Shown here piece by piece: positions 25,452 through 27,539 of a stretch of DNA of 64,000 nucleotides. The notes beneath the pieces were generated by a model, which saw nothing but the letters and a program-made list of their open reading frames with translations, did not search any database and was not told where the DNA came from. The position numbers were made by a program, and so were the translations under genes. Source of the stretch: Paracoccus zhejiangensis (GTDB lineage Bacteria; Pseudomonadota; Alphaproteobacteria; Rhodobacterales; Rhodobacteraceae); NCBI RefSeq assembly GCF_002847445.1, contig NZ_CP025430.1, positions 1-64,000 on the forward strand, given 5' to 3'. Every line of letters starts with the position of its first letter. Position 1 is the first letter of the stretch.

Positions 25452-26246
25452 CTATTGCACGCCGCCCCGCACGCCCTTTCCAATCGCATCCTCCAGCCGC
25501 CGCGCCTCGCGGTCGAGACCCCAGGGCGGGTTGATGACGAACATGCCAGAGCCGACCATGTTGTGATCCGCCCGGACCGGCGGGAAGCGGATCTCTGACA
25601 CCAGCGCCTGCCGGTGATTCTGCTTCAGCCGCGTGAGCATCGGCAGATGCCGGTCATCGGTCAGGATCGGGTACCACAGCGCGATTGCCCCGACATTCCA
25701 CTTGCGCACGATCTGGTCGATCTGGCGCGGAATCTCCTCGTACTCGGTCTTCACCTCGTAGCTGGGATCGATCAGCATGAAGCCCCGCCGCGGTGTCGGC
25801 GGGCACAGCGACTGCGCCACCTGGAAACCGTCGCGGCGGTGAATGGTGGCGAAGCCCGCCACCCAGGACAGCGCCGCATGTTCGGCCGGGTGCAGCTCGG
25901 CCAGGTGGGCATTGTCGGATTTGCGCAGGAAATGCGCGGCGATCAGCGGTGAGCCGGGATAGGCGGCGCGGCCATGGGCGGCGCGGACGGCGGCCAGAAC
26001 CTGCAGGAAGGGATGGCCCGCCTGCAACCAGCTCTCGGCCTCGGCGCGCCGGATGCCCGCCGCCGCCTCGCCGGTCTTCTGCGCCTCGGCGCTGTCCAGC
26101 CGATAAAGGCCGCGCCCGGCATGGGTCTCGATATAGCTGAGCTGCTTGTCCTTGCGCGTCAGGTAATCCAGCGCCACCGCAAGCAGCGCGTGCTTGTGGA
26201 GATCGGCAAGGTTCCCGGCGTGATAGGCGTGCTGATAGCTGAGCAT
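25452..26246 (-). CDS. rlmJ: 23S rRNA (adenine(2030)-N6)-methyltransferase RlmJ
   Basis: 264 residues. Start chosen at the second of two ATGs so that the N-terminus is MLSYQHAYHAGN, as in E. coli RlmJ (MLSYRH). Markers: LHKHALLAVALDYL, YIETHAGRGLY and the catalytic LIDPSYE (DPPYE-type). It methylates 23S rRNA using S-adenosylmethionine. It lies just downstream of the terminator-like last hairpin of the small-RNA array, so part of its expression may come from read-through. Convergent with uvrD, 9 bases apart. Confidence 0.92.
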   Translation of the reverse strand: MLSYQHAYHAGNLADLHKHALLAVALDYLTRKDKQLSYIETHAGRGLYRLDSAEAQKTGEAAAGIRRAEAESWLQAGHPFLQVLAAVRAAHGRAAYPGSPLIAAHFLRKSDNAHLAELHPAEHAALSWVAGFATIHRRDGFQVAQSLCPPTPRRGFMLIDPSYEVKTEYEEIPRQIDQIVRKWNVGAIALWYPILTDDRHLPMLTRLKQNHRQALVSEIRFPPVRADHNMVGSGMFVINPPWGLDREARRLEDAIGKGVRGGVQ

Positions 26247-26270
26247 CATTCGCCCATAACCCGGCCCGCA

Positions 26271-26317
26271 GAAAAAGAAAAGCGGCGGCGCCCAGGGAGG
26301 AGGAGGGGCGCCGCCGC
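26271..26317 (-). terminator. Terminator formed by the last hairpin of the RNA array
   Basis: A perfect 12-bp stem, GCGGCGGCGCCC / GGGCGCCGCCGC (26282-26293 and 26306-26317), with a motif-bearing loop. On the minus strand it is followed by TTTTCTTTTTC. It is both a CCUCCUCCC hairpin and a classical Rho-independent terminator, 22 bases before the rlmJ start region. Confidence 0.8.
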
Positions 26318-26951
26318 GTTCACGCTGGCCCAGGGAGGAGGAGGGGTCGCGTATGGGGTGCGGTGTCGCCCTGGGAGGAGGTAGGGCTTCACCGCGAACA
26401 AGGCAGGCTGTCCAGGGAGGAGGAGGGACAGCGGGCCTCGTATTCTTTTCAGCGGCGGCCCCTGGGAGGAGGAGTGGGGCCGCCGCTGTGCACGCGGACC
26501 TCAGGGAGGAGGAGAGGCCGCGTATGGGGTGCGGTGTCGCCCTGGGAGGAGGTAGGGCTTCACCGCGAACAAGGCAGGCTGTCCAGGGAGGAGGAGGGAC
26601 AGCGGGCCTCGTATTCTTTTCAGCGGCGGCCCCTGGGAGGAGGAGTGGGGCCGCCGCTGTGCACGCGGACCTCAGGGAGGAGGAGAGGCCGCGCATGGGG
26701 TGCGGTGTCGCCCTGGGAGGAGGTAGGGCTTCACCGCGAACAAGGCGGGCTGTCCAGGGAGGAGGAGGGACAGCGGGCCTCGTATTCTTTTCAGCGGCGG
26801 CCTCAGGGAGGAGGAGAGAGGCCGCCGCTGCGACAGGATGGCCCTAGGGAGGAGGAGCGGGCGATCCTGTTAACTGGGTGGCGGCATCCTCAGGGAGGAG
26901 GAGGGAGGATGCCGCCTAAGCCCTGGCCCCAGGGAGGAGGAGGGGCGAGGG
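26282..26951 (-). ncRNA. Array of 16 CCUCCUCCC-loop hairpins (CcsR/cuckoo-type small RNAs)
   Basis: Sixteen stem-loops, each presenting CCUCCUCCC in the loop of the minus-strand RNA. Plus-strand positions: 26282-26317, 26322-26352, 26360-26395, 26401-26438, 26450-26488, 26493-26522, 26531-26566, 26572-26609, 26621-26659, 26664-26693, 26702-26737, 26743-26780, 26792-26830, 26833-26870, 26880-26916, 26921-26951. Many stems are perfect over 11-13 bp while their sequences differ, so pairing is conserved. The array directly follows a DUF1127 gene. In Rhodobacter sphaeroides a DUF1127 gene (CcaF1) precedes four stress-induced CcsR RNAs with the same motif. I infer co-transcription and processing into several small RNAs. 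Confidence 0.88.
26349..26802. repeat. 171-bp tandem repeat inside the small-RNA array
   Basis: Unit A (26349-26519) and unit B (26520-26690) are identical over 171 bases. Unit C (26691 to about 26802) matches the first 112 bases with two differences (26694, and the change of GGCAGG to GGCGGG near 26747), then diverges. Each full unit carries four hairpins. This is recent unequal duplication. Confidence 0.92.
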
Positions 26952-26965
26952 ATCAAAAACCTATG

Positions 26966-27196
26966 TTACTGCGCGGCGCCGTAGGCGGCTTCGCGGGCGA
27001 TGCGGGAGATCATCGAACGATGAATGCCCAGGTCAGCCAGGTCACGCGCGGTCAGGGCGTTCAGTTCGCGAACGGTCTGACGGTAGACGGCATTGCGAGC
27101 GCGGCTTTCCTGAATGCCGGCGATCACGTCGCCCAGCCAAGTGCGGAAACCGGCTTCTTTGCGGGCGCTGCCGTGGATATGTTCAATTGCAGCCAT
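26966..27196 (-). CDS. ccaF1: Small DUF1127 protein, CcaF1-like
   Basis: 76 residues from ATG 27196 (GGAAG upstream). The C-terminal half is the DUF1127 helix pair: VRELNALTARDLADLGI then HRSMISRIAREAAYG. It is basic and small, consistent with RNA binding. In R. sphaeroides the homologous CcaF1 binds RNA and helps mature the CcsR RNAs encoded downstream on the same transcript. Here the hairpin array begins 14 bases after the stop. The symbol rests on this synteny. Confidence 0.85.
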   Translation of the reverse strand: MAAIEHIHGSARKEAGFRTWLGDVIAGIQESRARNAVYRQTVRELNALTARDLADLGIHRSMISRIAREAAYGAAQ

Positions 27197-27539
27197 GTTC
27201 GTCTTCCTTGCGTCTGCTCTTCGTCTCTGCGCCGAACCCGGATGGTCCTGCGCTTTCGGATGAGACAAAGATGGCGCTAATGCTGCAGATGCACAATGGC
27301 TGGAATGTGGTTTTCTGCTATGCAGCAATTGCATAACTATTGCTGACCTAGCTGGCTGTGACCTGCTGAAAAGGCGCGCAAAAAAGAGAGCGTTTCGCCG
27401 TTAGCGATCACGGTTCCGCTACCCTGTGCTCTTGTGACGCAGGGTCAGATGGGGTTAGCCTGCGACAAAGGGACGCGAGTGTTGCCGAGGCGCTGCGGTT
27501 CCATAAGTTTGATGACGATCTCGGGTGAAAGGCGAAGAA
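27197..27539. other. Divergent intergenic region between ccaF1-like gene and mrp
   Basis: 343 bases without a gene. The part near 27290-27400 is AT-richer and includes an inverted repeat (27319-27335). It should hold the stress promoter of the DUF1127/small-RNA transcript (minus) and the mrp promoter (plus). I cannot place -35/-10 elements with confidence. Confidence 0.5.
27319..27335. promoter_or_regulatory. Inverted repeat upstream of the small-RNA operon
   Basis: TATGCA-GCAAT-TGCATA is a perfect 6-base inverted repeat, 123 bases upstream of the DUF1127 start. It is a possible operator; no known regulator is assigned. Confidence 0.35.

Follow-up and report, generated by a model that had tools for sequence, protein, structure and literature searches.

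The 16 stem-loops at 26282-26951 on the minus strand of the window (the whole stretch of Paracoccus zhejiangensis DNA analyzed here, 64,000 nucleotides) quite probably form an expanded DUF1127-CcsR (cuckoo) operon, whose stress transcript would be cut to about eight RNAs that block ribosome binding sites. In the mechanism we propose, a stress promoter would drive one transcript that carries the DUF1127 message and the 16 hairpins and ends at the last hairpin, an endonuclease would cut this transcript into about eight two-hairpin RNAs (as RNase E does in R. sphaeroides), and the CCUCCUCCC word of every loop would pair with ribosome binding sites rich in G (GGGAGG type), silencing the mRNAs. With redundant loops, more copies would give more inhibitor per transcript. 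Transcription, cutting, targets and dose effect are steps that we infer; the hairpins, their strand, the conserved loop, the pairwise organization, the block duplication and the conserved promoter region can be read in the sequence itself.

New in this work are the evidence for selection on one RNA strand, the two-hairpin unit, the length arising from block copies, the ranking of array lengths, and the conserved promoter with its PhaR-like site. The copy-number behavior, the evidence for the two-hairpin unit and the PhaR-like site seem worth following.

Hairpins and Family Assignment

Folded to minimum energy, the minus strand forms exactly 16 hairpin loops with the full word in every one, which confirms the initial annotation's count of 16 minus-strand stem-loops with CCUCCUCCC in the loop. 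Exact copies of CCTCCTCCC number 16 on the window's minus strand, all within 26295-26940, and 0 on the plus strand. The minus-strand fold energy is −363 kcal/mol, whereas 20 dinucleotide shuffles average −244.75 (sd 6.05), giving a z of −19.55; the plus strand also beats its own shuffles (z of −10.76) because inverted repeats must fold so. The perfect loop-closing arms are 13 bp long in hairpins 4, 8, and 12 and 12 bp long in hairpins 2 and 16, and the remaining hairpins have 3–7 bp of perfect pairing beside the loop, with the stem going on past internal loops or bulges. The 12-bp and 13-bp perfect arms that had been given as examples are thus present, and an 11-bp example is found in no hairpin. 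The most constant part of the loop is positions 4–9, CCUCCC, each of which departs from CCTCCC in 3–13 of 679 hairpins in a count that is blind to hairpins with more than two mismatches.

A DUF1127 gene had been placed immediately upstream of the array, and the Pfam search confirms it: a gene of 76 amino acids plus stop (26966-27196, minus strand; PF06568, 46.5 bits, E of 3e-12), CcaF1-like by position and one of four DUF1127 matches in the genome. It lies directly upstream and on the same strand, as expected of a CcaF1-CcsR operon, and alignment of upstream regions points to GCAAGGAAG (27203-27211, minus strand) as its probable ribosome binding site. The downstream neighbor, outside the RNA, is an rlmJ-like rRNA methyltransferase gene (25452-26249, minus strand; PF04378, E of 1.5e-48), and the divergent upstream gene is Mrp/ApbC-like, with a best NCBIfam match under the cut-off (305.4 of 348 bits).

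Neighboring hairpins that each carry CCUCCUCCC in the loop (16 of 16 here) and variable stems that retain their pairing (also found here) are the marks of cuckoo/CcsR/ar14 RNAs, of which the cuckoo family was reportedly described by Reinkensmeier and Giegerich in 2015. The covariance search proposed in the initial annotation places five matches to Rfam CcsR1 (RF02791; 39.8–50.5 bits, E of 2.9e-7 to 2e-10) and three to ar14 (RF02344; 47.7–52.5 bits) on the array. Neither model reaches its gathering score, the best values being 50.5 of 65.3 bits for CcsR1 and 52.5 of 58.8 bits for ar14, where the gathering score is a curator's cut-off and no biological trait. Of 14 control genomes, 8 likewise give weak CcsR1 matches (E up to 1), and the other CcsR1 matches in this genome are weak, at 20.6 bits or less. 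Weak matches at two loci were rejected, since a single hairpin with an imperfect word is present in L007 and no hairpin in L008. A covariance model for a relative is described as discriminating less well because the stems are highly diverged (PMC3927594). Together with the DUF1127 neighbor, the sub-threshold matches support the CcsR/cuckoo assignment made earlier, and it is well supported by sequence that the array belongs among the known anti-Shine-Dalgarno small RNAs of cuckoo/CcsR/ar14 type and is arranged like the CcaF1-CcsR operon.

In R. sphaeroides, ccaF1 is reported to be co-transcribed with CcsR1-4 from an RpoHI/RpoHII promoter, with processing by RNase E (PMC10253847); the CcsR RNAs derive from the 3' portion of that transcript, RNase E taking part, and they have flhR as a target and an influence on the pyruvate dehydrogenase complex (PMC8625941, PMC8307010). 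The array resembles that operon in the DUF1127 gene directly upstream, the CCUCCUCCC loops, the two-hairpin unit, a candidate RpoH-like promoter and the terminator-like last hairpin (PMC10253847), and differs in having about eight units vs. four RNAs, near-identical 171-bp blocks, and a score below gathering for the R. sphaeroides CcsR1 model (RF02791). S. meliloti ar14/NfeR1 (RF02344) likewise repeats the CCUCCUCCC loop over several hairpins whose stems vary; unlike the array, NfeR1 is described with three hairpins and its own sigma-70 promoter (PMC10746234, PMC7143759). The cuckoo RNAs share the loop word and variable stems, but are described as having 2–4 hairpins (PMC4504443), as are the known Rhizobiales members (PMC3927594), and their association with short DUF1127 proteins is termed the CIN1 locus (PMC10253847). 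No paper on such arrays in Paracoccus appears among the literature matches listed (titles and abstract starts), and the P. denitrificans small-RNA paper PMC5107571 is, by a term search, without mention of Rfam, CcsR, ar14, DUF1127 or Shine.

Selection on the RNA and Its Strand

A single transition in a C-G or A-T pair leaves G.U on a given strand and the mirror transition leaves C.A, and equal numbers of the two are expected were the RNA irrelevant. Isolated internal stem mismatches, read on the motif strand, number 159 G.U, 8 C.A and 90 others in 553 unique hairpins, which come from clusters of the exact motif and were not filtered by folding. The ratio of G.U to C.A is 64:4 in the Paracoccus set and 96:4 in the other set, and 173:12 when a folding filter is applied (618 hairpins); the p-values of this mismatch test overstate independence since the hairpins are related. 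The G.U excess on the motif strand means that selection acts on the strand that is read onward from the DUF1127 gene. This is new sequence evidence, clear in its direction, that the molecule under selection is the minus-strand RNA.

Stems scoring at least 6 make up 66% of 542 hairpins, vs. 9% after the 3' arms are swapped. In the terminal two-hairpin unit, aligned over 23 sequences (22 of 27 relative rows plus the window, with L058, L060, L063, L067, and L069 omitted as they looked like near-duplicates), 99.4% of cells are paired and 22 cells are changed on both sides, vs. 5.2 in shuffles and 0–2 with slid partners; 0 of 500 shuffles reach 22. The five doubly changed pairs are all confined to the last hairpin, and the terminal unit has no more further pair types than shuffles do (315 of 500 as high). 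The arm-swap, mismatch and double-change counts bear out the earlier remark that the stems vary in sequence yet keep pairing.

These counts also bear on a coding explanation, by which the repeat would be part of a 414-codon frame running into rlmJ. There is indeed an open frame at 25452-26696, and the 171-bp period of the array is a multiple of three; however, compensatory stem changes and the G.U bias speak against translation, many motif spacings in this array and in its relatives are not divisible by three, and rlmJ has its own start past the terminator-like hairpin. We regard this explanation as scarcely credible.

Pairwise Organization of the Array

Hairpins were called across loci with at most one loop mismatch. 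The Paracoccus set, built by sequence likeness (L060, L080, and L081 are recorded without a Paracoccus name), comprises 61 loci and 56 distinct arrays, 49 of which have at least 6 hairpins; the seven arrays of 2–5 hairpins, some of them cut by contig ends, were left out of the parity count. Hairpin number is even in 46 of the 49 and odd in 3 (7, 11, and 11). Weaker and stronger hairpins take turns along the arrays: in 29 of 29 even arrays the mean strength of the second pair member exceeds that of the first. The median motif spacing is 38 within a pair vs. 45.5 between pairs, both comparisons being made on even arrays with the odd ones omitted. The Rfam CcsR1 model, with 83 positions and two hairpins, fits a two-hairpin unit. 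From the even counts and the alternation of weak and strong hairpins, the unit is probably a two-hairpin RNA, present about eight times here, and the array is read most simply as eight CcsR-like RNAs.

The pair is not universal, since the 31 arrays of other genera (P. limosus falls here, and is even) divide into 18 even and 13 odd, and some arrays, those of G288 and G481, repeat in threes. The linkers in which cutting is proposed are not richer in A+T (0.43 vs. 0.50). Many Paracoccus arrays (L033, L037, L038, L048, L054, L058, L062, L063, and others) have spacings of 66–77 bases between some pairs, a few of these linkers carrying a short motif-less stem (GCCGC...GCGGC); the window array has no 66–77-base spacing.

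Array Length and Duplication

Read from the DUF1127 gene, the array begins with hairpins 1–4 (26792-26951, minus strand as throughout), two two-hairpin units that by sequence and fold are its least repeated part. Sequence comparison then gives a first 171-bp block with hairpins 5–8 (26621-26791), a second with hairpins 9–12 (26450-26620), and a partial third (26318-26449) in which hairpins 13 and 14 are near-identical copies and hairpin 15 has diverged. With this 171-bp period, hairpins 5–8 are repeated as 9–12 and hairpins 9–10 as 13–14: the pairs 5/9, 6/10, 7/11, 8/12, 9/13, and 10/14 are identical at 39 or 40 of 40 bases, and the diverged pairs 11/15 and 12/16 at 30 and 27 of 40. Much of the array length, judged by these identities, is thus made of near-identical copies of a 171-bp, four-hairpin block, and the 16 hairpins are therefore not independent, about ten being distinct. 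Hairpin 16 (26270-26317) has a 12-bp perfect stem and the full word in its loop, followed by TTTTCTTTTTCT, and from these features is probably an intrinsic terminator. A terminator consensus scan gives one site, at hairpin 16, vs. a mean of 0.9 in shuffles, and therefore proves nothing; the T-run after the last hairpin is missing in some relatives.

Arrays appear to gain and lose hairpins through duplication. The nearest relative found, the uncultured Paracoccus locus L053, has 8 hairpins at 95% identity over 3076 bases (99% for DUF1127); P. saliphilus has 20, in a four-hairpin repeat with a period of 188 bp, and the 26 of G288, which belongs to another genus, follow a three-hairpin repeat with a period of 140 bp. 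The difference from the nearest relative could in principle be an assembly error, with the array too long here or collapsed there. The contig of L053 is named NODE, in the style of a short-read assembler, and a 171-bp repeat could collapse; against this, the genome of the window is in 5 contigs, the window's own being nearly 4 Mb, and the same kind of block repeats occurs in other species, which makes such an error very unlikely.

As for length, motif pairs were counted as exact words 20–50 bases apart, a count that underestimates other genomes because wider spacings and imperfect words are missed. At least one pair is present in 122 of 125 Paracoccus genomes, and this genome has the most on one strand, 15, followed by 13. 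In the family, 296 of 394 genomes have motif pairs, and 5 of the 394 have at least 15 in total: this one, G130, G173 (Wenxinia marina by its matching locus L115), G423 (17), and G288 (25). Across the class, 17 of 337 genomes match, of which 4 belong to the family and the 13 others, with 1–3 pairs each, are taken as chance. When one loop mismatch is allowed, arrays of at least 16 hairpins are found in G489 (16), Wenxinia (17), G230 (17), P. saliphilus (20), G423 (20), and G288 (26). The array had been called unusually large, which agrees with the top one-strand pair count among 125 Paracoccus genomes and is exceeded by the 20 hairpins of P. saliphilus and the 26 of G288; 16 hairpins is long and no record. 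Two Paracoccus genomes, G001 and G003, each have arrays on three different contigs.

The extra hairpins might also be neutral, tandem blocks changing by slippage or recombination with 8 or 16 hairpins working alike. The block copies are nearly identical, the closest relative does with 8, and Paracoccus-set arrays of at least 6 hairpins range from 6 to 20, all of which would be in keeping with neutrality. Retention of the word and the pairing in 16 of 16 copies points the other way, a weak argument since the youngest copies had little time to decay. We consider neutrality a substantial possibility, though short of probable, and it is compatible with the expanded operon we favor save for the dose effect. 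If, instead, copy number sets dose, the numbers seen in Paracoccus (among them 8, 10, 12, 14, 16, and 20) together with 26 in another genus would constitute a natural titration series, which makes it testable why a regulator repeating one identical word needs many copies.

Promoter Region and Upstream Site

Upstream of the DUF1127 gene, 26 aligned upstream regions conserve an RpoH-like promoter, TTGTGC-N16-CCATCT (27269-27296, minus strand), which we take to resemble heat-shock sigma promoters; the pattern is present in 23 of 28 Paracoccus-set loci tested. A sigma-70-type promoter was looked for at the locus and none was found. Between the promoter and the DUF1127 ribosome binding site, the same alignments show a conserved 5' leader stem-loop around ATC(C/T)GGG, here ATCCGGG (27229-27253, minus strand), with no Rfam match at E up to 1.

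Just upstream of the promoter lies a candidate PhaR site, CTGCATAGCAG (27315-27325, minus strand), that fits the consensus given for R. sphaeroides, CTGCNNNGCAG (PMC12542648). In 44 of 69 loci (25 of 28 Paracoccus-set loci and 19 of 41 others), a site with this consensus stands no more than 350 bases ahead of the DUF1127 match, and the remainder of the same 69 loci holds 8 in 318,678 bases; these loci are related, some being near-duplicates, and in the 41 others the match start serves as a proxy for the gene start. Counted over the window only, the consensus turns up no less often than by chance (5 found vs. 3.08 expected), and the candidate site could, given its position, serve the divergent gene instead. 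The genome contains five CTGCATRGCAG sites, one upstream of the array operon, one where a MaoC-type dehydratase gene starts (L203, about position 1500), and three in or at other reading frames. Some MaoC-type enzymes serve PHA synthesis. The PhaR-like upstream site of the Paracoccus locus is a possible contrast with the R. sphaeroides operon and, if real, would link carbon storage to a broad post-transcriptional inhibitor.

A further proposal, which we put forward tentatively and think less likely than not, is that the array acts as a variable-number tandem repeat with which lineages tune anti-Shine-Dalgarno dose by blocks of two to four hairpins, and that in Paracoccus a heat-shock sigma factor and the storage-polymer sensor PhaR jointly set the shut-off of GGGAGG-type messages.

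Targets of the Loop

Binding was calculated at 317 heuristically called gene starts with an assumed 16S tail, which is readable in 0 of 1 (this genome) and 1 of 31 kin, where the rRNA may be absent or masked. Mean binding is −8.30 kcal/mol for the loop vs. −8.31 kcal/mol for the assumed tail. An altered specificity of the loop is unsupported, as the loop is stronger by at least 1 kcal/mol at 128 of 317 starts, the tail at 109, and the two lie within 1 kcal/mol at 80. The loop binds starts no better on average than the assumed tail and therefore no preferred target class is shown; a general preference for one class of start site was not found among the 317. The site of the DUF1127 gene itself binds the loop weakly, at −5.3 kcal/mol, and 78.5% of the 317 starts bind as well or better.

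The loops could alternatively, in line with one of the two dose-dependent sponge roles suggested in the initial annotation, titrate an RNA-binding protein (Hfq or another) or the DUF1127 protein itself, and not mRNAs, with hairpin number as the capacity of the sponge. Many identical loops on varied stems and a DUF1127 gene adjoining the array would suit this role, as would reports that CcaF1 binds RNA and affects CcsR maturation (PMC12501420, PMC8307010) and that CcsR is said to interact with Hfq (PMC8307010). CcaF1 is, however, also reported to complement an Agrobacterium defect ascribed to protein-protein contact (PMC12501420), and NfeR1, an ar14 RNA with three such loops, is described as silencing ntrB through redundant loop words that pair at the translation start region (PMC10746234). 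A protein sponge seems improbable, and by analogy with NfeR1 we hold redundant blocking of ribosome binding sites by processed RNAs to be most likely.

The full-length loop complement GGGAGGAGG followed by N3-11-ATG occurs at 9 places in the genome, 4 of them opposite the array itself. Among the other five, two are at recognizable genes, a malonyl-CoA decarboxylase (matA; Pfam) and madL, two start frames of 29 and 67 codons, and the last lies in a frame that we presume to be PaaZ-like. Malonate use as a general target is ruled out, because madL is present in 25 of 125 Paracoccus genomes vs. 122 of 125 with array pairs. The malonyl-CoA decarboxylase gene and madL (L151 and L152, about position 1500 in each) are about 3 kb apart, and both have a perfect 9-base loop complement, a candidate target site, as ribosome binding site. 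The full 9-mer stands before madL in 2 of 25 loci, one being in the window's own genome. In 23 of 25 loci, the 32 bases that precede madL contain GGGAGG, with which the loop core CCUCCC would be predicted to pair, vs. 18 of the 317 sampled starts (in a 17-base region).
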